DNA from: Streptomyces sp. NBC_01142
GTDB lineage: Bacteria > Actinomycetota > Actinomycetes > Streptomycetales > Streptomycetaceae
Length of the DNA: 64,000 nt
Reading direction: 5' to 3'
Assembly: GCF_026341125.1 (NCBI RefSeq)
Contig: NZ_JAPEOR010000002.1
Coordinates: forward strand, 1,426,001-1,490,000
The position numbers were made by a program, and so were the translations under genes. Positions within the stretch are counted from its first letter, which is position 1. Each line of letters opens with the position of its first letter. Positions 6-12,711 of the stretch are shown piece by piece. Below the pieces are notes generated by a model. It was given only the letters and a program-made list of their open reading frames with translations. It searched no databases and was not told the DNA's origin.

Positions 6-443
6 ATGCAGTCAGAACCAGCCAATTCGGACGCCCGCGCAGTACCGCCGCTCGAGCAGTCGCACTGGGTGGCGTTCGCCGGGATCCTTCTCCTGCTGAG
101 CGGCCTGTTCGACATCATCAACGGCTTCGTCGCCCTGCTGGACCACGGCTACTACGAGACGACCGCCGATCATGGAAACCGGCTGCTCATCTTCAACTAT
201 GCCGCCTGGGGCTGGGTGTGGATCATCGTCGGCATCGCCCAGGTCCTGGCCGGCGTGGGTGTGTTCGTCGGGTCGAGAGCCGCGCGGATCACCGGCATCG
301 TGCTGGCAGCCGCCTGCATGGTGGGCCAGTTGATCTTCCTCTCCGCCTTCCCTCTGTGGTCGCTGGTCACCATGGCCCTGTCCGTGCTCGTCATCTACGG
401 ACTGGTCGCCGAGCCGCGCCATGTTCCGGGTGCGCGGGTCTGA
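6..443 (+). CDS. DUF7144-type four-helix membrane protein
   Basis: A 145-residue protein with four predicted membrane helices (about residues 22-42, 62-85, 90-108 and 112-133) and a conserved first-helix region containing FAGILLLLSGLFDIINGFVAL. The pattern matches the small actinobacterial family annotated as DUF7144, whose function is unknown. The ATG is only five bases from the window edge, so the ribosome binding site is not visible and a slightly longer N-terminus cannot be excluded. The length is normal for the family, so the gene looks intact. The next gene downstream on the same strand is a decayed regulator, and no operon partner can be recognised. Confidence 0.6.
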   Translation: MQSEPANSDARAVPPLEQSHWVAFAGILLLLSGLFDIINGFVALLDHGYYETTADHGNRLLIFNYAAWGWVWIIVGIAQVLAGVGVFVGSRAARITGIVLAAACMVGQLIFLSAFPLWSLVTMALSVLVIYGLVAEPRHVPGARV

Positions 444-608
444 CCAACTGAGGAAACGCCTGCAGGGCTACAGATGCGTCTCGTTGACCAGCCCGCGAAG
501 CCATCCGCCGTTCCATGGCCGCCCGAACTCGCTGACCGCCCGACCGAAGCCACTCGTCCGGCGGGCCGCGGCCCCTTCGTACCGTTCCGTGCATGTGGTG
601 CAGGCGGG

Positions 609-1333
609 ATGGCCGATCCCGCCGCCGACCTGGGGCTCGCCACGGAGGTGACGGCAGCCAGGCTGAAGTTGCTGGCCGCGTTGCCGGCGGAACTGCGGGA
701 GGAGGCGGCGCGTACGCGGCGGTGTTCCACCTGGACGCTCCGGCCTGGTACCGGGAGCCCGAACAGACGCCGCATCTACCCCTGTTCGTCGACGCCGTGC
801 TCACCCGGCGTGCGGTGGAGGTGCGCTACCGCCGTTGGCGCGCGCCGCAAGAGGTGCATCGCCGCCTTCGCCCCTACGGCCTGGTACTCAAGTCCGGTGT
901 CTGGTATCTCGCGGCCGCTACGGTGAGCCGGATCGCGACCTACCGGGTCGGCCAAGTCCTCGACGCGGTGCTGAGCGACGAGCGGTTCGACCGACCGCAG
1001 GACTTCGACCTGGGCGCGTACTGGACCTCCCACCTCGACGATTTCCGGACGCGCCGCTACATCGGCACAGCCACCATCCGCTTGTCCCCACGGGGACGCC
1101 GACGCCTGCCCGACAACCTTCCCCCGGAGCTGGTGCGGGAAGTCGACTCCACCGCGACCGCCATCGGCGACGACGGATGGGTCGAAGCGGTCATCCCGAC
1201 CGAGAGCACCGAGCACGCGTGCGGTGAACTGCTGCGACTCGGCACCGACGTCGAGGTTGTCGCGCCGGCGGAACTGCGCCGAGCGATGGCCGACACGGTA
1301 GGCGTACTGGCCAGGACCTACGGATATGCCTGA
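609..1333 (+). pseudogene. Broken WYL-domain transcriptional regulator (YafY type)
   Basis: From 723 onward the frame reads a WYL domain (LPLFVDAVLTRRAVEVRYRR, then VWYLAAATVSRIATYRVGQV) followed by the WCX-type C-terminal region ending in VGVLARTYGYA. Such regulators normally have about 310-330 residues with a DeoR-like helix-turn-helix at the N-terminus. Here the helix-turn-helix is missing. The preceding linker (MADPAADLGLATEVTAARLK, from 609) lies in a different frame and joins the WYL part by a frameshift near 712-722. Both a 5' deletion and a frameshift are therefore visible, so this is a relic. A partial dyad at 1350-1371 may be its terminator. WYL regulators commonly control DNA-damage or defence genes, but nothing here shows a target. 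Confidence 0.75.
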
Positions 1334-1770
1334 CACACCAGGACCCCTACCCGGCGGCCATGGCGGCCGGGCTCTCCGGCTGAGGACGAAGTACCACTCA
1401 CCACGACGCCGGCGATCGACCTGGGGTGCACGCGCAGCGAAGGCGAGCGGCTCACTCATCGACCGTGCCTGATCGGGGCGAGTCACCAGCCCATGTCCCT
1501 GGCGACTTCCTCCTGAGCGACGGCAATCTCCTCGGCGGTTGAGCCGGTCAGGTTCACCCCGCCGCTGCCGGCAACGACCTCGAGATCCTGCGAGTGAGAA
1601 CCTCAACGACCAGTGCCCGGAGGACCAGCGGGAGTACTTCTCACTCGTTCACTTCACCCTGGCCCGTTGCGCAGGACCAATCCCCGCCAGGAGGCCCACC
1701 GTCCCCGCCCGCGAGCCCGAGCCGAACTCGCTGACCGCGATGGGCCACCTCTCGAGCGTCCGAGGCACGG
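1334..1770. other. Gene-free stretch with a possible coding remnant
   Basis: No intact gene is seen. On the minus strand, from about 1605 to 1488, a frame reads GGVNLTGSTAEEIAVAQEEV and ends ARDMGW-stop. This looks protein-like but I cannot assign it to a family, and it has no start. On the plus strand near 1610-1660 a frame reads DQREYFSLVHFTLARC, also unassigned. The stretch probably contains debris of deleted genes between the WYL relic and the end of the peroxidase gene. Confidence 0.35.
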
Positions 1771-4032
1771 TCAACCTGTCAGGGACGTCCACATGGTCAG
1801 GGGCCGGTCGTCGACCGTGATCTGGTCCTCGTGGCCACTGCCGTCGCGGATCACGATGATCCGGTACTCGTCCTGGTGGAACACCCAGAACAGACTCATG
1901 CCGTTGATCCGCTGCATGTCCGGTACCGCGAGGAATTCGTCGACCTGGGTGATCCCGTTCAGTGATCGCCACAGGTCGAGCCCGCGGTCGCCGCGCTCGA
2001 GGGCGTCCTGGTGCATCCTGCCGTCGGCGACCGACACGAGCCGGTAGACCTGACGGCCCATGAGGGTGTGGAAGACCCAGTAGTGGCTCTTACCGTTCAC
2101 CCGCTGCATGTCGGGCACCGGCAGGAAGGCGTCCACCCTTTCGACGCCGCTGAACGAGACCCAGGCGGAGAGCGAACGATCCGGGATGTCGATCCCGGCC
2201 GCCTGCTCGGGAGGGAGTCCGGACTCGGCGCCGTCGGCGATCCAGATCCGCCGGTAGACCTGGCGGCCCTCGACGGTGTGGAACAGCCAGAACCGGCTGC
2301 GGCCGTTGATCCGCTGCTCGTCCGGGACGGGCAGGATCGCGTCGACCTTCGTCACCCCGGCGTAGCACGGCCAGGCGGTCAGCGGTCGATCGGGGCGTTC
2401 CCGGACGTCCGTGTGCTCGTCGCCGTCGGCGATGGAGATGGTCCGGCAGACGGCGCCGTCGCTGCCCGCCCCGTACGCCCAGTACCAGCTCTTGCCCTGG
2501 TCCCGCTGCATGCCGGGGACGGGCAGGAAGGCGTCGGTCGGCCGGACGACGGCGGGCGGCTTGTCGGTGAGTCGGCCGTCACCGAGCAGCCGCAGCAGGG
2601 TCAGCGAGGGGACGAAGGCGTAGACGGACCCCTCGGTGACGACGAACTGGCTGAGGATCAGCTGAGTGGTCTTGCCGGGGGTCTCGTAGCTGAGCTTGCC
2701 GGCTGCGCCGACCATTCCGTCGGGGCCGGGCTTGTTGGTCCGGTTGGGCGGAAAGTCCGGGCTGTCGATCCACGCCTTCTGGATGAACTCGAACTGCTGC
2801 ACGAGGTCCGACTGGTAGCAGACGAAGAGCAGGCCGCGCTTCTCGTCGGGCCCGCCGGGCCCCTCCGAGGCAGGGTCGAAGGGTGCGCCGTACGGGGCGC
2901 CGCGGCGGATGATCCGGCGGCGGTCCATGAACGGATTCTCGTCGAGCGGCCGATCGCCGGGCTTCTCCTGCAGGCCGTCCCGGGGGTTGGTGTTGCGCAG
3001 GTGCGAGAAGAGCGGGGTGATGAAGCCCTCGGGGTCGTTGCGGTAGCCGAAGTCATTGTCGTCGCCGGCCAGGGCGTTGGAGGGCCTGTCGGCATGGGGG
3101 CACGTGGCGACGGGGGTGCCGGACCGCCACCGGCCGACGAGGCGGGCGGCCAGCCACTCCGAGGTGGCCTCAGGCGGCACCACCTTGGCCTCCTTGAGCA
3201 CCTTCAGCTGGGCGGCGGCCTGGAACCAGAAGCCCGGGACGTCCTGGCCGAGCCGGCGCACCACCTGGAAGCTGCCGTTGTCGGCCCAGTCGGGCGTCTC
3301 GTGCGGCACGCCGCCGACACGGTCGTGCCCGACGACGAACTCGCCGGGCGGGATCAGCCGGGTGCCGTGATGGCCCTTGACGTACTCGGGCTTGACGGGG
3401 TCCGGCTCGTCGAAGCCGGTCACGCCGGGCTCGCTGACGCCGTCCTTGAAGCCGAAGTGCTCCTTGCCTCTCCGGCTGCCGGGCAGTGTGGCGGCGTCCT
3501 GCTGGAACACGATCACGATCTTGGCCGCGGCGGCGGCCTCGCGCTGCTGTCTGACCGTCGCCTGGAGGTCCTGGACGGTGTCGGAGGCGACGGTGAGGAC
3601 GGCGTGGACGACCTGGCCCTTGCCGTTGCCGAAGAGCCAGATCTCCGGCGAGCTGTCGCCGGTGTCCCCGAGTGCCCGCTTGTCCGAGCCCTGCTTGAAG
3701 GCCTCCAGGCCGCTGCCGGGCTTGACGGAGGGCAGCGGGTCCTTTCCGGTCAGCTCCCGCAGGCCCGCGCAGGTGAAACTGACGTTGATCCAGGTGGCCT
3801 TCAGCGTCTTCGGGTCGTCGCCGGCCGAGGCCTTCCTGGCCTTGCTGAAGGCGGTGTTGAAGGTCGCCACCTGCCTCGTCGTGGAGATCTGCGGTTCCAG
3901 GGTCTTGACCCAGGTACGCGCCCGCGCCGGGTCCTCGAACTTGAGGAACAGCAGGGTCATCTGGTCCTTCTTGAAGCCGGCGATCACATCGCCCTGGATG
4001 TCGTCGCTGTCACGCAGCTTGAGGTCGTCCAT
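1771..4032 (-). CDS. DyP-type haem peroxidase with four C-terminal hemopexin-like repeats
   Basis: Residues 1 to about 480 form a DyP-type peroxidase. The GXXDG signature is present as FGFKDGVSEP, with its catalytic aspartate, and the proximal haem histidine lies in SHLRNTNPRD. Residues about 499-753 are four tandem repeats of 59-70 residues. Each starts near VDAFLPVPD, has an NGKS-x-YWVFH core, then YRxISIADG, and closes with DRPLxxWxSLxGV. The order VDA-F, YW, then PR-PL-W matches blades of the four-bladed hemopexin fold, which I infer. No signal peptide is visible, so the protein is probably cytoplasmic or exported by an unusual route. Start choice: GGAG at 4041-4038 sits five bases before ATG 4032; the alternative GTG at 4038 overlaps that GGAG. 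The gene is divergent from a radical copper oxidase. Confidence 0.8.
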   Translation of the reverse strand: MDDLKLRDSDDIQGDVIAGFKKDQMTLLFLKFEDPARARTWVKTLEPQISTTRQVATFNTAFSKARKASAGDDPKTLKATWINVSFTCAGLRELTGKDPLPSVKPGSGLEAFKQGSDKRALGDTGDSSPEIWLFGNGKGQVVHAVLTVASDTVQDLQATVRQQREAAAAAKIVIVFQQDAATLPGSRRGKEHFGFKDGVSEPGVTGFDEPDPVKPEYVKGHHGTRLIPPGEFVVGHDRVGGVPHETPDWADNGSFQVVRRLGQDVPGFWFQAAAQLKVLKEAKVVPPEATSEWLAARLVGRWRSGTPVATCPHADRPSNALAGDDNDFGYRNDPEGFITPLFSHLRNTNPRDGLQEKPGDRPLDENPFMDRRRIIRRGAPYGAPFDPASEGPGGPDEKRGLLFVCYQSDLVQQFEFIQKAWIDSPDFPPNRTNKPGPDGMVGAAGKLSYETPGKTTQLILSQFVVTEGSVYAFVPSLTLLRLLGDGRLTDKPPAVVRPTDAFLPVPGMQRDQGKSWYWAYGAGSDGAVCRTISIADGDEHTDVRERPDRPLTAWPCYAGVTKVDAILPVPDEQRINGRSRFWLFHTVEGRQVYRRIWIADGAESGLPPEQAAGIDIPDRSLSAWVSFSGVERVDAFLPVPDMQRVNGKSHYWVFHTLMGRQVYRLVSVADGRMHQDALERGDRGLDLWRSLNGITQVDEFLAVPDMQRINGMSLFWVFHQDEYRIIVIRDGSGHEDQITVDDRPLTMWTSLTG

Positions 4033-4375
4033 GCTCACTCCAGAAGATCGACAGCTCTTACGCCGTTATTGCGCAGAGTAGTCAGCAACGTACGCGGCAC
4101 TCATGTGGGCTTCCGGTGGCCGACCGGCCGATGAAGCTGTCCGTCACCCGTTTGTTGTCCGCAAACGTGCTGGTCGGTGGGCACACGAGGTGCGGTGGGG
4201 CGCTTTCGCGGCTCGCGGTCACCCGCCTGCATGACTCGGGGTGACAGCCGAGCAACCCGCCGGAAAGCTGAAGCGTGTCACTTTGCGTGAACGGGTGGCA
4301 GTCCTGGCTCAGCCCGTCCCCGACGCGTCCCCTGGTCGGGGCTGGTGCGCCTTCATCCCTCCGGTAAGGAGTCCC
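4033..4375. promoter_or_regulatory. Divergent intergenic region, peroxidase/copper oxidase
   Basis: This 343-bp gap separates the start codons of two divergent genes and must hold both promoters. I cannot place a convincing -35/-10 pair for either gene. A good ribosome binding site (AAGGAG, 4366-4371) lies at the right edge before the copper oxidase ATG, and GGAG (4041-4038, minus strand) lies at the left edge. No obvious operator palindrome was recognised. Confidence 0.5.
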
Positions 4376-6358
4376 ATGTCCCGCAGTAATCCGCCCCTGC
4401 CCGCCCGCCGACGGCTCGCCGCGGCGATCTCGGTATGCGCCGCCACCGCGATGGCCGCATCCATGGCCCTGGTGTCGGCCGGCCCCGTACTCGCCCACAC
4501 CGGTCACGGAGACGAGGGCGATGCGTTTCCCTACGGCCCGGCCTCCCGGGCGGCGACCGCACCGGTCACCGTCGACCCGGCGGAGGCGGCGACGCTCGGC
4601 AAGGAGCACGCCGAGGAGCACGCCCGTACCCGGGCGGCCATGGCCGGCGTCGGCGAGTACCCGCAGACCACCCGTACGGAGCGGCTCAAGGCGCTGACCG
4701 CCTCCCAGGAGAAGGCCAACGCGTCCTTCGACGCCGCCGAGTTCGGCCGGTTCCGGGAGTACTTCCAGTCCCCGGACTTCGCGGCCCACATCGCGCTGCT
4801 ACCGACCGGCAAGGTCCTGCTGTTCTCCTTCGAGCGGATCGAGAGCAACCCGCAGAAGGAGCCCGCCCCCACCGACACCATCGGCAAGGAGAACGCCGGT
4901 CGCGCCTGGATCTGGGACCCCACCAAGGGGACCGGGCCCGCCGCGTTCACCGAGAAGAAGCCTCCGGTCATCAACATGCCCGACGGCAAGAACGAGCCCC
5001 GCCCGGCCCCGTTCTTCTGCGCCGGCCACTCCTACCTGCCCAACGGCATGCTCGGCGTCTTCGGCGGTAACCTCGGCGGCAACGGAGGCTCCGGCGCCAA
5101 GCTGTCCTTGGTCTTCGACCCCTGGGCGGAGGAGTGGTACCTGAACAAGGACATGTCCGTCGGCCGGTGGTACCCGAGCGTGGTCACCGGCGCCGACGGA
5201 CGTCAGGTGATCATGTCCGGTCAGTCGGAGCTCGGCTGGGGTACCCCCACCCCGGTCGTCGAGCGCTTCCCCGCCGCGACCCAACAGGTGCCGTTCGACA
5301 AGTCGGTCAAGCCGATCGGCTGGGGAGTGGACAAGCTCAAGACCGAAGCCCCGTTCAAGTGGGACTATCCGCAGCTGTTCTCGCTGCGTGACGGGAAGAT
5401 CTACGGTCTCGGCCGCTCCGTGGACCAGCAATGGCTCTTCGACACCGTCGCCGACTCCAAGACCGACCTGCCGAACCGCCCGGACATCAACAAGGACAAG
5501 CCCGGCCCGGACGGCGGGGAGTGGAGGCGCAACTACGGCTCCGCGGTCCCCCTGCCGGCCGGCTTCAGAGGTCCCGACTCGGTCCTGGTCCTCGGCGGCG
5601 ACCGCAATGACCCGAACACCTACCGTCTGGCCGGCGGCAAGTGGAACACCGAGAAGCCCCGCGCCTTCGGGCGGACCCAGGACGACACCCTGCTCCTGCC
5701 GAACGGCAACCTGCTCACCGTCAACGGTGCCTTCGACATCCGCGACTACGGCAACGGACCGTACAACCCCAACGCCGATCTGAAGTACCGCCAGATCGAA
5801 CTGCGCGACGAGAACGGCGACTGGAAACTCGGCCCCGTCCAGCGGCTGCCGCGCGGCTACCACTCCAACGGCGTGGTCCTCCCGGACGGCCGCGTCATGA
5901 TCACGGGCGACGAACTCCAGCAGCTCGCCAACGACCCCGACGTCACCGACAACAACAACGGCAGCATCGAGATCTACGAGCCGGCCTACCTCCACCAGGA
6001 CAGCCGCCCGTCGCTCGGCCTGGTCTTCAACCCCAGCGTCGGCTACAACGAGAAGATCACGGTCAGCACCAGCACGCCCAGCGACGTCACCCGCGCCGTA
6101 CTACTGGCCCCGACCACCGCCACCCACTCGATCAACACCAGCCAGCGTCACCTCGAACTGCGCATCAAGAGCCGCAGCGGCAACTTCCTGGAGCTCCAAG
6201 CCCCGCCGACCGCCGCCGCGGCCCCGCCCGGCTACTACATGCTCTTCCTCCTCAACGAGGAGGGCGCACCGAGCAAGGCCGGCTGGGTCCAGCTCAAGCC
6301 CCCGGCGGCGGCCGCCGCCACGGGTGCCACCGCCGCCGACGTGAAGGCCGGCGACTGA
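4376..6358 (+). CDS. Secreted radical copper oxidase (galactose oxidase/GlxA-like)
   Basis: A 660-residue protein with a signal peptide (ARRRLAAAIS near residues 10-19, hydrophobic stretch, probable cleavage after A40 leaving HTGHG at the mature end). It follows the galactose oxidase plan: a kelch-type propeller and a C-terminal DUF1929 domain. The copper and cofactor residues are all present: C215 in FFCAGHS and Y266 in GRWYPS for the Cys-Tyr crosslink, axial Y495 and H496 in RGYHSNGV, and H584 in THSIN. Such enzymes oxidise alcohols to aldehydes and release H2O2. In Streptomyces, GlxA acts in glycan deposition beside a cellulose synthase-like gene, which is absent here. AAGGAG at 4366-4371 supports ATG 4376. 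The neighbouring divergent peroxidase could consume the peroxide product. Confidence 0.88.
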   Translation: MSRSNPPLPARRRLAAAISVCAATAMAASMALVSAGPVLAHTGHGDEGDAFPYGPASRAATAPVTVDPAEAATLGKEHAEEHARTRAAMAGVGEYPQTTRTERLKALTASQEKANASFDAAEFGRFREYFQSPDFAAHIALLPTGKVLLFSFERIESNPQKEPAPTDTIGKENAGRAWIWDPTKGTGPAAFTEKKPPVINMPDGKNEPRPAPFFCAGHSYLPNGMLGVFGGNLGGNGGSGAKLSLVFDPWAEEWYLNKDMSVGRWYPSVVTGADGRQVIMSGQSELGWGTPTPVVERFPAATQQVPFDKSVKPIGWGVDKLKTEAPFKWDYPQLFSLRDGKIYGLGRSVDQQWLFDTVADSKTDLPNRPDINKDKPGPDGGEWRRNYGSAVPLPAGFRGPDSVLVLGGDRNDPNTYRLAGGKWNTEKPRAFGRTQDDTLLLPNGNLLTVNGAFDIRDYGNGPYNPNADLKYRQIELRDENGDWKLGPVQRLPRGYHSNGVVLPDGRVMITGDELQQLANDPDVTDNNNGSIEIYEPAYLHQDSRPSLGLVFNPSVGYNEKITVSTSTPSDVTRAVLLAPTTATHSINTSQRHLELRIKSRSGNFLELQAPPTAAAAPPGYYMLFLLNEEGAPSKAGWVQLKPPAAAAATGATAADVKAGD

Positions 6359-6667
6359 CACCCGCTGCTCTCTCCGGGACGAGCCCCCAGCCTGGTCACG
6401 GGCACGGCTGGCGGCCCGCACAGCACCGGTGTCGGGTACGGGCGGGTCTGACCTGCCCGGTGATCTCGTCGAGCTGAGAGTGGCTTGATCGAGTCGAGGG
6501 GTCCACCTCCCCGGTGGAGAAGGCGTGGCTGGGCGCAGCACGCCCTGGGCCACGGGCTTCGGGATCAGTCCCGTCGTGTGGTGTGAGGCAGGGAGAAGAA
6601 GGGCAGTCGCGCCTGGTCGGGAGAGGCGCTCGGGGATCAATCGAACCGTGGTTGGCGCTGAGATTGA
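6359..6667. other. Gene-free stretch
   Basis: No gene is seen between the copper oxidase and the recombinase relic. GATCAATC (about 6635) and GATTGATC (about 6661) form an 8-bp inverted pair just past the recombinase stop, which may act as a hairpin terminator or be a mobile-element end. The rest shows no recognisable signal. Confidence 0.3.
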
Positions 6668-7561
6668 TCATGCCCCGGTAGCGGCCGCGGCCTCCAGGGT
6701 GTCGATACGGTTCGCGTATTCGCGGCGGGCCTTGCGCTGGGCCGGGACGACCGTGACGCCCTGGGCGCCGTCGAGGGGTTGGCAGCGGGCCAGGAGCGCG
6801 CGGTGCACGGAGGGGACGGCGCTGACGCGCAGGGTGTAGCCCTGGCCACGCCGTACGGTCGCGCCCTGGTCGAGCGCGGCCTGCTCAGCGGGCTCCGGTT
6901 CGGCGACGCGGAGGAAGTCGGCGACCTTGCCCGGCATGTCGAGGGCGACCGGCAGCTCCGGGGCCGGGACGTCCTCGGGGGCGGCCGTGTACTCGGGCAG
7001 GAGGTCGGCGACGGCCGTACGCACGGCGCCGCGGCTGACGCCGTGCTCGCGGGCCAGGGCAGCGATGGACTGGCCGTCCAGGTACGCGGTGCGCACGGTG
7101 TCGGTGTTCCCGCTCGCGATGGCCGGGCGGCGGCCGCCCTTGTTGCCCTTGGCCTCGGCGGCACGCAGCCCGTCGTAGGTCAGCTCGCGCTGGAGGTCGC
7201 GCTGGAGTTCGCCGGCGGCTGCGAGGGTCTGCACCATGAACTTCACGGTGGACAGCAGCTCTCCGGTGCGCGGGTGGCGGGCGGTGAGGTCCATCGCGGA
7301 GAACGCGCCGTCGTGGATACGCAGGGCGAGACGGTCACGGTGCAGGACGTCGAGCACGTCGAGGATGTGCCCGATGCCGCGTACGAGGCGGAACATCTCG
7401 GAGATGTGCACGGTGTCGCCCGGCCGCGCGTAGGTGAGCAGCTCGCGGAATTTCGGCCGCTGGAGGGGGTGGAGGCGGCTGGAGGTCCCGGGCTCCTCCT
7501 CGAAGACGACCGGGTCCTCGATGCCGGCCTCGTCCAGGACGAGGTTCTGCCGGGCGGTCGA
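6668..7561 (-). pseudogene. Serine recombinase (resolvase/invertase) lacking its N-terminus
   Basis: The readable part begins at the segment STARQNL, which in intact resolvases follows the first beta strand and contains the catalytic serine. It continues through the catalytic domain (EEPGTSSRLHPLQRPKFREL, GDTVHISEMFRLVRG) to a helix-turn-helix (SIAALAREHGVSRGAVRTAV) and a C-terminal extension of about 120 residues. The serine codon is at 7561-7559. Upstream of it the natural start (usually MRLGYARV) has been replaced by an IS30-type transposase fragment on the opposite strand, so no authentic start remains. Such proteins resolve or invert DNA between short sites. This copy is almost certainly dead as a recombinase, although a fusion frame continues into the IS sequence. 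Confidence 0.75.
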
Positions 7562-7732
7562 CTGCTTCGGCAGTACCTTGCCAAGGGCGCGGACCTCCGC
7601 ACGTTCAGCCAGGCCGACCTGGACGCCATCGCCCACGAGCTCAACCATCGTCCGCGCAAGACCCATGGGTACCGCACTCCGGCAGAGGTCTACGCTGACC
7701 TCTTGAACAGCGGTGATGCGCTGACCGCTTGA
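7562..7732 (+). mobile_element. IS30-family transposase C-terminal fragment
   Basis: The plus strand reads LLRQYLAKGADL, then FSQADLDAIAHELNHRPRKT and HGYRTPAEVYADLL, ending at a stop at 7732. This is the conserved C-terminal end of IS30-type DDE transposases, including the final catalytic glutamate region (ELNxRPRKTxG). Only about 56 residues remain and all upstream transposase sequence is missing. The left junction falls immediately beside the catalytic serine codon of the neighbouring serine recombinase. No convincing terminal inverted repeat was found at 7733-7760. Confidence 0.75.
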
Positions 7733-7769
7733 GCTCGCCATCGTTTGCCGACACTCCCGAGCCGGTCGG

Positions 7770-8429
7770 CTAGCTCGGGCGGATTGCGGCCTCGATGTGG
7801 GCGAGTTGGGCGGCGAGGACCTCTTCGAACGCGGCGTGGCGGTCTGCCCCGAGGGGGCGGACGTCGCGGGCGAAGTGGGCCAGGGCGGGGAAGCGTTCGG
7901 GGTCGGCGCCGAGTACCGCGACGCGGAACAGCTCCATGCCCTGTTCGTACTCTTCCTGGGTGATGGTGCTGACTCCGGCCTCGGAGGCGATCAACGAGGC
8001 GATGAGGACCGCGAGCCGGTGGTAGCGCACCGGAATCTCCTCGTCGGGCAGCCCCGACGCGCGCAGCGCCTGCAGCACCTCTTCCATGACCAGCCGGGAA
8101 CCGGCGCCGCCTGACGCATAGCGTCCCCAGACCGCGGCGAGCTGGGGCTGCTGCCCGAACGCCTCTCTCACGCGCAGGGCCAGCGCGGTGATGCGCTGCT
8201 TCCAGTCGCCCTCGGCGCGGTAGCCGTCCATGGACGCCAGGAGGATCCGATCGGCGACTGCGCGCAGCAGTTCTGTCTTGCTGCGGAAGTGCCGGTAGAG
8301 GCTGGAGGAATCGGTCCCGAGGGTCGCGGCGAGCTTGCGCACGCTGAACGACTCCGCGTCGCTCGTGCGCAGCAACTCCGCTGCCGCATCCAGGATTTCC
8401 TCGGTCGACCAACGCCTTCGACCTGCCAT
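7770..8429 (-). CDS. TetR/AcrR-family transcriptional repressor
   Basis: A 219-residue regulator. Residues 9-60 form the TetR helix-turn-helix (ILDAAAELL, then FSVRKLAATLGTDSSSLYRH), followed by an all-helical ligand-binding domain. GAGAGGGG lies just before the ATG at 8429. The gene is divergent from a serine hydrolase gene, and the gap contains a perfect 17-bp palindrome suited to a TetR dimer. It most likely represses the hydrolase and itself. The effector cannot be deduced. Confidence 0.85.
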   Translation of the reverse strand: MAGRRRWSTEEILDAAAELLRTSDAESFSVRKLAATLGTDSSSLYRHFRSKTELLRAVADRILLASMDGYRAEGDWKQRITALALRVREAFGQQPQLAAVWGRYASGGAGSRLVMEEVLQALRASGLPDEEIPVRYHRLAVLIASLIASEAGVSTITQEEYEQGMELFRVAVLGADPERFPALAHFARDVRPLGADRHAAFEEVLAAQLAHIEAAIRPS

Positions 8430-8466
8430 TTCGCCCCTCTCGTCGAACTCAGTCTAACCTATGCAC

Positions 8467-8494
8467 TTGGTGTTGCACGCAGTGCGTGCATAAT
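8467..8494 (+). promoter_or_regulatory. Candidate promoter of the serine hydrolase gene
   Basis: TTGGTG (8467-8472) and CATAAT (8489-8494) are separated by 16 bases and resemble a -35/-10 pair for the housekeeping sigma factor. The -10 matches the consensus at five of six positions and the -35 at three. The spacer is almost filled by the 17-bp palindrome, so a bound repressor would exclude RNA polymerase. Confidence 0.4.
8474..8490. promoter_or_regulatory. 17-bp perfect palindrome, probable TetR operator
   Basis: TGCACGCA, a single G, then TGCGTGCA form two perfect 8-bp half-sites. The element lies between the divergent TetR gene (start 8429) and serine hydrolase gene (start 8615) and overlaps the candidate -10 region. 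The length and symmetry are typical of TetR-family operators. Confidence 0.6.
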
Positions 8495-8614
8495 GAGGAC
8501 ATGAGCGTGCCGAGCGACCCGGCAGCAGGCGGGCCGACGTGCCGGCGTGCCCTGTCACCCGGGTCGGGCGACCGACGTGGAGCTCACCCCGGGAAACACG
8601 AAAGGACGCATGAC

Positions 8615-9733
8615 GTGAAGAACCCACTGGATTCCGCGGCACTGAACGCCGCCATCGAAAACGTCCACCGCGCCGGGATGCCGGGCCTGTTCGCCGAGGT
8701 GCGAGACGGCGAACAGGTCTGGCGCGGCGCCGCCGGGGTCGCCGATGTCGCCACCGGCCGCTCTGTCACCGCCGACATGCGGCACCGAGTCGGCAGCATC
8801 ACCAAGACCTTCACCGCCGCGGCGGTCCTGCAGCAGGTCGAGAGCGGTCGGATCGGTCTCGACACACCGATCGGCCGGTACCTGCCGAAGCTGGTTCCCG
8901 GAGCACGCGGTGACGCGATCACGGTCCGGATGCTGATCAACCACACCAGCGGCCTCGCCGAGTTCCTCCCTTACGCCTACCCCTCCCTCAAGGGGATGCC
9001 CGTCGTCGCGGACACCCGGCCCCAGAGCCTGGACGACCACCGGTTCACACGGTTCGACCCCGTTGAACTGATAGAGATGGGGGTCACCGCACCTGCCGTC
9101 GGCGCCCCGGGCGGTGCTCCGGGGGTGTACTCCAACACCAACTACTTGCTCCTCGCCCAACTCCTGGAAGAGGTGACGGGCACTGCGGCCGAGCGGTACA
9201 TCACCCGCAACGTCATCGAGCGCGCCGGGCTCCGGGACACCGAACTCCCCGCCGGACCGTACGTCGACGGACCGCACTCGCAGCTCTACGAGGCGTGGTT
9301 CGGCATGATCGACCCACCGCGCGACTACAGCGTCTACGACATGTCATATGCGGGGCCAGCGGGCTCCCTGATATCGACCGTCGCGGACCTCAACCGCTTC
9401 TACCGCCTGCTTCTGGCCGGAGAGATCATCAGCCCGTCGTCGCTGGCGCAGATGCAACGCATCGGCCCGGTCATCTCCCAAGAGGGAAAGACGATCGACT
9501 ACGGCCTCGGCCTGCACCCGATGGAGGGTCCCGGTCAGAGCACCTTCTGGGGCCATGGCGGCACGGTCTGGGGTGGTGGAGCACTGGCCATGATCCGTGC
9601 CGACGGCAAACGGCAGATGTCCGTCGCGGTGAACCTGCAGAGGTGGAACAGGCTCGACTCCTCCGGCAAGCCGCAGCCCCATCCCATCGACGACGCGCTT
9701 GCGACTCTTTACCGCGTGGCGATGTACGGCTGA
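8615..9733 (+). CDS. Serine hydrolase of the class C beta-lactamase/DD-peptidase fold
   Basis: A 372-residue protein with the three serine beta-lactamase-fold motifs: SITK (catalytic serine and lysine, about residue 63), YSNTNY (Tyr-x-Asn, near residue 172) and WGHGG (HxG, third motif, near residue 311). No signal peptide is evident from the chosen start. GTG 8615 is chosen because AAAGGA (8601-8606) lies eight bases upstream and similarity begins there; frames from 8486 carry no family-like sequence. The substrate could be a beta-lactam, a D-amino-acid peptide or an ester. Its divergent TetR neighbour and the palindrome suggest induction by a small molecule. Confidence 0.82.
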   Translation: MKNPLDSAALNAAIENVHRAGMPGLFAEVRDGEQVWRGAAGVADVATGRSVTADMRHRVGSITKTFTAAAVLQQVESGRIGLDTPIGRYLPKLVPGARGDAITVRMLINHTSGLAEFLPYAYPSLKGMPVVADTRPQSLDDHRFTRFDPVELIEMGVTAPAVGAPGGAPGVYSNTNYLLLAQLLEEVTGTAAERYITRNVIERAGLRDTELPAGPYVDGPHSQLYEAWFGMIDPPRDYSVYDMSYAGPAGSLISTVADLNRFYRLLLAGEIISPSSLAQMQRIGPVISQEGKTIDYGLGLHPMEGPGQSTFWGHGGTVWGGGALAMIRADGKRQMSVAVNLQRWNRLDSSGKPQPHPIDDALATLYRVAMYG

Positions 9734-11142: not shown

Positions 11143-11353
11143 CTACTGCGACATCGCGCGGGGGTGTTCCTGGCGGATGCCTATAGCGGATCGCTCGTGC
11201 GATGTCGGCCCCGCACGCGCGGGGGTGTTCCTGTCGAGGGGCCCGGAGCGTGATCCGGGCCCCAGTCGGCCCCGCACGCGCGGGGATGTTCCAGGACCAT
11301 GCCCGGACCGACGGACAGCTGACGGGTCGGCCCGGCACCCTCCGGGACGTGGG
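11143..11353 (+). CRISPR. Four-repeat CRISPR relic, type I-E-like
   Basis: Two near-identical 28-base repeats lie at 11204-11231 and 11265-11292. They begin GTCGGCCCCGCACGCGCGGG and end GTGTTCC or ATGTTCC, differing at one position. A decayed repeat at 11143-11170 keeps about the last 16 bases, and another at 11326-11353 keeps most of the first 13. All four start exactly 61 bases apart, with three 33-base spacers (11171-11203, 11232-11264, 11293-11325). The repeat has the internal palindrome (CCCCGC...GCGGGG) and length typical of streptomycete type I-E arrays. No cas gene is in the window. Confidence 0.8.
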
Positions 11354-11373: not shown

Positions 11374-12153
11374 CGGCTGGAGTCGGCCGAGGTCCTGCGC
11401 GAATGGAAGGCCAAGCAACAGCGGGAGCGCGAACAGTGGTCCGAGGTCGGCGCCTGGGTCGAGTCCGGTTTGGCCTTCACCCACGAAAACGGTGAGCCGA
11501 TTCACCCGGACTGGGTCAGCCGGCGATTCAAGCGCCTGGTTGAGCTGTCCGGATTGCCCCCGGTCCGCCTCCACGATGCCCGGCACATCTCAGCGAGCCT
11601 TTCATTGCTCGCAGGGAACGACATCAAGGTCGTGCAGGAGAAGCTGGGCCACAGCTCACGGCAGATCACCTCCGACACGTACACCAGCGTCCTGCCCGAG
11701 CTGCTGCGCGCAGAGGCAGAGTCGACGCTGTCCGTCGTCCCGCGCGAAGTGCCCTACAGGGTGCATCAGGCGCTGAAGATCCCGAAGAGTGCGTTTCGGG
11801 ACGGGCTGGCCGTCGTGTACGCCCACGCGGCGAGCTACGGCGACCTCTGGGCGGTAGGCGCCCTGATTCGACACGACGGCGAACTACTGGGAGAGATCAG
11901 AGCCGCCGTGCGCTCTCCCGAGCAGGCGGCGGCTGCCGCAGAGAAGTGGCTGCGCGAGCACTGCACAGAAAGCAGCCTGCAACTGGTCCGAGTCGAGAAT
12001 CTGCACGCGGCCGTACCTGAGGGCCAGCGTCAGCACCTCACCCTTGTGCGTTTCGTGATCGGCCGCGTCACTGCACCAGACGTAGCTGGCTGGCTGGAGC
12101 GATCTCAGAAGGACAACGGCGCGGACGACGGACCGGGCGAAGAAGCCGCATAG
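11374..12153 (+). pseudogene. Tyrosine recombinase (integrase) lacking its N-terminal half
   Basis: The frame resumes at RLESAEVLREWKAKQQRERE and contains most of the catalytic domain: LHDARHISASL (box II histidine and arginine), LGHSS (second histidine) and the nucleophile tyrosine in DTYTSVLPELL. After this come about 160 extra residues without a recognised domain. The first catalytic arginine and the core-binding domain are absent, and no proper start is found except a TTG at 11470 inside the catalytic domain. The coding similarity starts about 20 bases after the last CRISPR repeat. The gene faces the 3' end of a tRNA gene (12306), the usual arrangement for an integrated element attached at that tRNA. 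Confidence 0.75.
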
Positions 12154-12305: not shown

Positions 12306-12382
12306 TGGTGGGGCGGGTGGGACTCGAACCCACGGCCGACGGATTATGAGTCCGCTGCTCTAACCGGCTGAGCTACCGCCCC
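12306..12382 (-). tRNA. tRNA with anticodon CAT (Met or Ile2)
   Basis: The minus strand starts GGGGCGGTAGCTCAGCCGG and folds as a cloverleaf. The acceptor is GGGGCGG/CCGCCCC, the anticodon loop is CTCATAA with anticodon CAT, and the T arm is GTGGGTTCGAGTCCCAC. The discriminator is A, followed by an encoded CCA. The CAT anticodon fits elongator methionine tRNA or the isoleucine tRNA whose C34 is modified to lysidine, and I cannot decide between them from sequence alone. It is the probable attachment site of the integrase relic to its left. Confidence 0.9.
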
Positions 12383-12526
12383 TAACGGCGCGTCGCGCAC
12401 ATTTGTGCGCGCCGTCTGCCGCAGCATAGCCGGTCATACGATCTCCTGCCTCGGATGGTCGGCAACGCACAACCGTCAGGACTGCGCTGCCCCCTGCCCG
12501 GTTCCAGAAGTGGCTCAGGACACACG

Positions 12527-12552
12527 AAAAAGGACCCCCAAGGGGCCCTTTT
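12527..12552 (-). terminator. Intrinsic terminator for the tRNA-Asn pair
   Basis: Read on the minus strand, AAAAGGGCCCC, TTG, then GGGGTCCTTTT forms an 11-bp stem with one mismatch, and a run of five T follows. It lies nine bases beyond the 3' end of the nearer tRNA-Asn gene. Confidence 0.7.
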
Positions 12553-12560
12553 CCGCATTG

Positions 12561-12633
12561 CTCCCCCGACTGGACTCGAACCAGTAACCCTCCGGTTAAC
12601 AGCCGAATGCTCTGCCAATTGAGCTACAGGGGA
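12561..12633 (-). tRNA. tRNA-Asn (GTT), copy 1
   Basis: A 73-base cloverleaf on the minus strand beginning TCCCCTGTAGCTCAATTGG, with anticodon loop CTGTTAA (GTT, asparagine), T arm ACTGGTTCGAGTCCAGT and discriminator G. CCA is not encoded. It differs from the second copy mainly in the anticodon stem and variable region. Confidence 0.95.
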
Positions 12634-12638
12634 TCGCG

Positions 12639-12711
12639 CTCCCCCGACTGGACTCGAACCAGTAACCTGCCGGTTAACAGCCGGCTGCTCTGCCAATTGA
12701 GCTACAGGGGA
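12639..12711 (-). tRNA. tRNA-Asn (GTT), copy 2
   Basis: A second 73-base tRNA on the minus strand, only five bases from the first copy, with the same acceptor, D and T arms and anticodon GTT. Its anticodon stem is GCCGG/CCGGC where copy 1 has TTCGG/CCGGA. The two genes are probably co-transcribed and end at the hairpin at 12527. Confidence 0.95.

Follow-up and report, generated by a model that had tools for sequence, protein, structure and literature searches.

To our knowledge, the physiological role and the substrates of bacterial class V DyP peroxidases are poorly known. A described parallel to the locus studied here is the GlxA-DtpA pair of Streptomyces lividans, likewise a copper radical oxidase that gives hydrogen peroxide (H2O2) to a DyP: H2O2 made by GlxA is used by DtpA, with no strong physical contact between the two proteins (PMC4736821). 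DtpA is a class I DyP that is exported by twin-arginine translocation (Tat) and encoded in a copper-chaperone (Sco/ECuC) gene cluster. Here we analyzed a 64,000-nucleotide stretch of Streptomyces sp. NBC_01142 (contig NZ_JAPEOR010000002.1, positions 1,426,001 to 1,490,000; hereafter the window), in which a DyP gene lies beside a copper radical oxidase gene. Unlike DtpA, this DyP belongs to class V, adjoins the oxidase, carries a propeller tail and lacks a visible export signal, and a scan of six window proteins (6-9730) gave no Sco-type match. The arrangement is real and conserved: a class V DyP bears a hemopexin-fold module, apparently in place of an earlier lectin, and forms a conserved pair with a copper radical oxidase. 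No description of the fusion or of its oxidase pair was found among the best-ranked open-licence titles and abstract beginnings listed, which does not prove its absence from the literature.

Other proteins resemble one or the other half of the fusion. Class V DyPs with a bulb-type lectin (e.g., P0131, named for S. pristinaespiralis) belong to the same DyP clade, are 49-66% identical in the DyP part, and some of them adjoin the same oxidase, as the propeller-DyP does; their tail is a lectin of ~110-145 amino acids (aa) instead of the ~260-aa propeller of the window protein, and some basal members have twin-arginine signals whereas the propeller DyP has none visible. Legume seed albumins (chickpea 3s18 and LS24 3lp9, which we take to be of the PA2 type) are hemopexin-fold relatives, but they are stand-alone proteins of plant origin with 13-15% identity to the tail. 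The hemopexin-like domains of hemopexin and vitronectin (PF00045) differ in that the window tail has no PF00045 match and forms one propeller rather than haemopexin's two. In animal hemopexin-like domains a disulfide usually joins blades 1 and 4; the tail has only two cysteines, both within blade 1, and therefore no disulfide joining these blades.

A class V DyP with a predicted hemopexin-fold tail

A first-pass annotation, made from the sequence alone, had described the gene as a DyP-type peroxidase fused to four hemopexin-like repeats, and its coordinates (1771..4032) were correct, with the gene on the minus strand (Table 1); a GTG two codons 5' of the ATG is a possible alternative start. 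The peroxidase identity also held: a Pfam scan gave PF21105 (6e-18) and PF20628 (9e-6), with the DyP_N match at residues 11-165 and the Dyp_perox_C match at residues 371-423, TIGR01413 exceeded the model's cut-off (1.5e-33), and the top solved relative was an ancestral D-type DyP (7anv, 4e-62 over residues 8-481). In an alignment of 51 members of the propeller-DyP family, Asp197, His344, Arg376 and Arg377 are invariant, so that a working haem enzyme is expected; we take His344 to be the haem ligand, and either Arg376 or Arg377 is presumably the distal Arg. Judged by sequence, the DyP part is thus a class V DyP with expected haem binding and peroxidase function. The Asp of the GxxDG motif is important in DyPs according to PMC8197335. 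The whole protein is present in a single copy in the assembly, and a plasmid search returned 90 records, none of which spanned 80% of the protein; among the 20 plasmid records listed, matches were confined to the DyP part.

The tail consists of four tandem repeats, as first annotated, of 65, 70, 64 and 58 aa. All six repeat pairs share 45-55% identity with z scores of 19-32 against 500 shuffles per pair, and hence the likeness is not due to chance. Recurring positions include an Asp in the first strand followed by P-D-x-Q, a YW or FW in the second strand, an Arg in the third strand and a terminal Trp, and W518, W582, W716, R594, R664 and R724 are each conserved in 51/51 rows. The His of a DG-x-x-H-x-D motif is found in 21/51 rows for blade 1, 47/51 for blade 3 and 50/51 for blade 4; blade 2 of the window protein lacks it. 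An AlphaFold model of the tail (mean per-residue confidence, pLDDT, 93.7; overall fold confidence, pTM, 0.90) is a four-bladed propeller in which each blade has four strands and a short helix, its ring closure being read from an alignment over model residues 11-267. With VIA-align, hemopexin-fold proteins ranked first by a large margin, and the nearest solved structure is titled as a plant albumin showing hemagglutination; the hemopexin fold was distinguished by VIA-align only and not by the Foldseek ranking, where glycosidase and nuclear-pore propellers came first (template-modelling score by query 0.2-0.5). The closed four-bladed hemopexin propeller initially proposed is therefore what the model predicts, and the tail is not accounted for by another repeat family.

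Profile comparisons placed the tail near known hemopexin repeats through intermediates. The tail of the window protein gave no Pfam match at all, and scans of 13 diverse tails returned 17 scattered weak families (best E value 0.003, each in at most two tails). A PDB profile search with the tail gave 6 matches at E values of 10 or less. These were mainly designed Pizza propellers, aligned across ~34 positions (best 2e-4), and included neither a hemopexin nor an albumin, i.e., no match to the PA2-type albumin sequence family. A profile of four Ser/Thr kinases (L044, L045, L061, L064) and a helix-turn-helix (HTH) protein (L063), however, aligned with the tail across all four blades (probability 99.7%, E 6e-26), and PF00045 matches 5/5 of them within an E limit of 1 (best 3.7e-9), two of the three rows shown being under the cut-off. 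The link between the tail and hemopexin is thus supported by the predicted structure and by the kinase-type repeats as profile intermediates. Of the profile check proposed with the first-pass annotation, this indirect link stood and a direct PF00045 match did not appear; membership of PF00045 by direct sequence match was accordingly dropped for the window protein and the 13 tails. The tail represents a hemopexin-fold family missed by Pfam, which peroxidases and PLAT proteins have in common and to which repeats of membrane kinases are distantly related.

Spread of the tail and probable replacement of a lectin

We carried out the suggested survey of DyPs with this tail, and the tail proved conserved: searching with the tail as a region yielded 89 protein clusters, 87 of them DyP-type proteins of >700 aa with DyP_N in the precomputed Pfam column, and Streptomyces, Kitasatospora, Streptacidiphilus and Actinospica are among the genera named. 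When the tail alone served as query, 8 matches were obtained, two of them known already, and two PLAT-tail fusions were among the 8. The tail profile was found in 15 of 293 genomes sampled from the order and in 20 of 295 sampled from the genus, with intact DyP fusions in 8 and 11 of these, respectively; among the remaining matches are kinases, a PLAT fusion, an HTH protein and a protein containing a ricin-B-like stretch. The latter is an 814-aa frame (L062:1114-3555) in which the ricin-B-like stretch, under the cut-off, is followed by tail-like repeats. Six Ser/Thr kinases (L044-L047, L061 and L064) terminate with a membrane segment, seen by eye, and hemopexin-like repeats, and are candidate receptor kinases with a propeller sensor. 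These actinobacterial kinases resemble the window protein in their C-terminal repeats, which for four of them, in a profile with L063, align with all four tail blades, and differ from it by the kinase and membrane segment and by shorter repeats that match PF00045.

A search with the DyP part returned 449 proteins; the best 120 listed comprise 90 propeller-tailed (61 known, 29 new) and 27 lectin-tailed proteins and 3 with neither tail. The bulb-type lectin family PF01453 was precomputed in 24 of the 27 listed lectin-tailed DyPs, a Pfam backing that is limited to this listed set; the lectin of P0131 scored 32.1 bits, slightly under Pfam's 32.4. In a tree of 72 DyP domains, 44 propeller rows formed one clade nested among lectin-tailed rows, with one tail-less row inside and the lectin row P0145 as sister (SH-aLRT 93 and 98 at key branches). 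The simplest reading of this nesting is that the lectin was replaced once, and on this sequence tree the propeller probably replaced the bulb-type lectin a single time; the outgroup branch is long, and the rooting is therefore unsure.

Conserved pairing with a copper radical oxidase

The neighboring gene encodes a galactose-oxidase-like copper radical oxidase, in which we take Cys232 to be the Tyr-Cys partner and Tyr283, Tyr512, His513 and His601 to be the copper ligands. Positions were set by alignment to GlxA, and conservation was counted over 46 rows of the oxidase and its relatives (Table 1). The oxidase is expected to produce H2O2.

The oxidase adjoins an intact propeller-DyP in 17/17 loci, i.e., the window and 16 relatives (L065-L080, from 20 stretches fetched), although these loci include close kin. 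Orientation varies: 12 pairs are divergent and 5 co-directional with the oxidase upstream, and the matched ends lie 81-358 nucleotides (nt) apart in the 16 relatives. Among the other four stretches fetched, L081 has a decayed DyP with an oxidase remnant still adjoining, in L082 the DyP is gone, as is part of the oxidase, and L083 (a PLAT fusion) and L084 (another protein) have no oxidase match. In two identically set searches of the genus, each across 295 genomes, with DyP relatives taken at E up to 1e-80 (33 genomes) and oxidase relatives at E up to 1e-60 (37 genomes), 24 genomes have both, 9 the DyP only, 13 the oxidase only and 249 neither (Fisher p 8e-19, which ignores kinship).

We further examined 30 loci out of 35 DyP places in the genus genomes, with lectin tails assigned by eye and the lectin profile built from those. 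All 11 propeller-tailed loci had an oxidase within 1.5 kb, and one locus had neither a tail nor an oxidase. Outside these 30 loci, a lectin-tailed DyP in a 1269-aa open frame (L086, G012) had no oxidase match in its 14-kb stretch. Conversely, 5 of 30 oxidase stretches outside the propeller group had a DyP match, four of them lectin-tailed. The fifth is a distant oxidase (30%) close to a distant tail-less DyP (27%; L154, G400), a case in which pairing of oxidase and DyP may extend beyond this clade.

Locus layout and surroundings

The likely oxidase start is 4376, the first in-frame start being a GTG at 4241, and no sigma-70-like site was found in the intergenic region. The DyP gene is flanked on its opposite side by a WYL/WCX-domain regulator (593-1333, plus strand), which had no tblastn match in the 31 relative stretches compared. 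Farther along the window lie a serine recombinase (6671-7741, minus strand; PF00239) and a CRISPR-like array remnant at 11143-11303, where two complete repeats of 28 nt and a diverged third copy are spaced 61 nt apart and the open frames are probably spurious. An integrase-like fragment recognized by eye (11470-12153, plus strand) is close to three tRNA genes at 12309-12711; together with the recombinase it marks a possible integration site.

Table 1 Features of the DyP-oxidase locus, in window coordinates.
Feature	Position	Strand	Basis
DyP-hemopexin-like fusion gene, 753 aa	1771..4032	-	ATG at 4032, stop 1773..1771
DyP peroxidase domain, residues 8-484, class V, D-type	2581..4011	-	profile and structure-sequence matches
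Distal Asp197 of GxxDG motif	3442..3444	-	51/51 aligned rows
His344	3001..3003	-	51/51 aligned rows
Arg376-Arg377	2902..2907	-	each 51/51 aligned rows
Linker, residues 485-496	2545..2580	-	pLDDT <50 at 492-496
Blade 1, residues 497-561	2350..2544	-	model and repeat alignment
Blade 2, residues 562-631	2140..2349	-	model and repeat alignment
Blade 3, residues 632-695	1948..2139	-	model and repeat alignment
Blade 4, residues 696-753	1774..1947	-	model and repeat alignment
Intergenic region between divergent DyP and oxidase genes	4033..4375	.	gene layout
Galactose-oxidase-like copper radical oxidase	4376..6358	+	PF09118 1e-22; GlxA 4unm 6.5e-27
Secretion signal of oxidase, RRR ahead of hydrophobic stretch	4376..4495	+	by eye
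Oxidase Cys232	5018..5020	+	46/46 rows
Oxidase Tyr283	5171..5173	+	46/46 rows
Oxidase Tyr512-His513	5858..5863	+	46/46 rows
Oxidase His601	6125..6127	+	46/46 rows

Discussion

We place about even confidence in the reading that the divergent genes form an oxidase-peroxidase module in which the propeller tethers the DyP to a glycan-type surface ligand. Specifically, the secreted oxidase would oxidize an alcohol or aldehyde, probably one carried by a sugar or glycan, with release of H2O2, which the class V DyP would consume in one-electron oxidations, the two proteins presumably meeting outside the cell. The propeller would use repeated binding sites to hold the DyP at a surface ligand, for which a glycan is the likeliest candidate, and would perform the role of the bulb-type lectin of related DyPs, binding the lectin's ligand or an equivalent. 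This proposal builds on the gene layout, domain identities, predicted fold, active-site conservation, adjacency and tail replacement on the tree; the enzyme activities, the transfer of H2O2, the ligand class and the extracellular meeting are what we infer. Co-occurrence of the two gene families, the hemagglutinating albumin named in the title of the nearest solved structure, and GlxA-DtpA as a tested precedent of H2O2 transfer also speak for it. Among the ligands first suggested for the tail (haem, a metal, a glycan or a partner protein), the glycan gains support from the probable replacement of a lectin, and haem is the least likely.

Several observations weigh against this tethered module. 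By eye, no signal peptide was seen in the first 25 residues of 88 propeller DyPs or in the 11 genus loci, the exception being P0028 with a longer N-terminus containing two arginines (RR), and a propeller DyP without a visible signal may therefore never meet a secreted oxidase. No ligand site was located on the propeller, and the DyP core is poorly modeled, with block pLDDT values of 43-60 around residues 181-200 and 301-350; we therefore make no claim on domain packing. The hemopexin assignment meets with the absence of PF00045 from the window protein and from the families listed for the 13 tails (E up to 10), a probability of 0.3% when the tail was compared by hhalign with A5, a gappy four-row alignment of Pfam-positive bacterial hemopexins, and the lack of a hemopexin entry among the listed top 50 Foldseek matches. 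Finally, in 9 of the 33 genomes with a DyP no oxidase match reached the cut-off, 9 of the 18 lectin-tailed loci among the 30 examined had an oxidase within 1.5 kb while the other 9 had none, and a DyP match was missing from 25 of the 30 oxidase stretches fetched outside the propeller group; the last two counts indicate that pairing is not obligatory in either wider family.

A doubtful alternative is that the propeller docks the DyP to the oxidase or another protein partner, and may allow it to be exported with the oxidase by Tat hitchhiking. RR ahead of a hydrophobic stretch was found in 13/16 propeller-paired oxidases against 11/29 others (p 0.011), and a stricter RR pattern in 11/16 against 3/29, an enrichment that hints weakly at Tat co-export of the DyP. 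The motif test is crude, however: the hydrophobic stretch was misplaced in L080, and probably in L079 too, and the 16 loci include close kin and are not independent. Signals in general were assessed by eye. In favor of docking, 4 of 7 lectin-DyP N-termini, all of the basal group, have their own RRTV-type twin-arginine signals (L175, L177, L180, L183); of the other three, two have no signal and L179 ends before that point. The adjacency in all 17 loci and the precedent of GlxA-DtpA cooperation (PMC4736821) point the same way, but 4 of 5 oxidases beside lectin DyPs lack RR, though 4 of 5 of those DyPs are also signal-less, and the GlxA-DtpA pair itself showed no strong physical contact.

The missing signal peptides would also suit a cytosolic DyP that is functionally unrelated to its neighbor and whose propeller merely shapes an oligomer. 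We regard this as improbable, since the adjacency survives changes of orientation, the two gene families co-occur and a lectin was replaced. In haemopexin, haem is held between two propellers by two His ligands, and a propeller that binds haem or a metal in this way could supply the DyP with haem or keep a metal close to it. This possibility is quite improbable: the tail is a single propeller, it took the place of a lectin on the DyP tree, DyPs without a propeller are ordinary haem enzymes, and the other identified carriers are PLAT and kinase-type proteins rather than haem proteins. Hemopexin-style haem capture, in particular, is unlikely, and we dropped it as a first choice because only one propeller is present.

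A more inclusive scenario, which we consider unlikely as a whole, is a two-gene system for extracellular oxidation in Streptomycetaceae and relatives. In it, the oxidase would feed H2O2 to a class V DyP, an undescribed subfamily of hemopexin-fold lectin, successor to the bulb-type lectin, would direct this DyP to a glycan at the surface, and the Tat-exported oxidase would carry the signal-less DyP out. Returning to the tethered module, a conserved, presumed peroxide-making partner combined with an interchangeable binding tail means that the ligand of the tail would point to the substrate of the DyP. The exchange of lectin for propeller amounts to a natural experiment, and predicts a lectin-like function for a hemopexin-fold domain. 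Since peroxidases, PLAT proteins and, more distantly, membrane kinases carry propellers of this type, a single binding assay could be informative for several systems.
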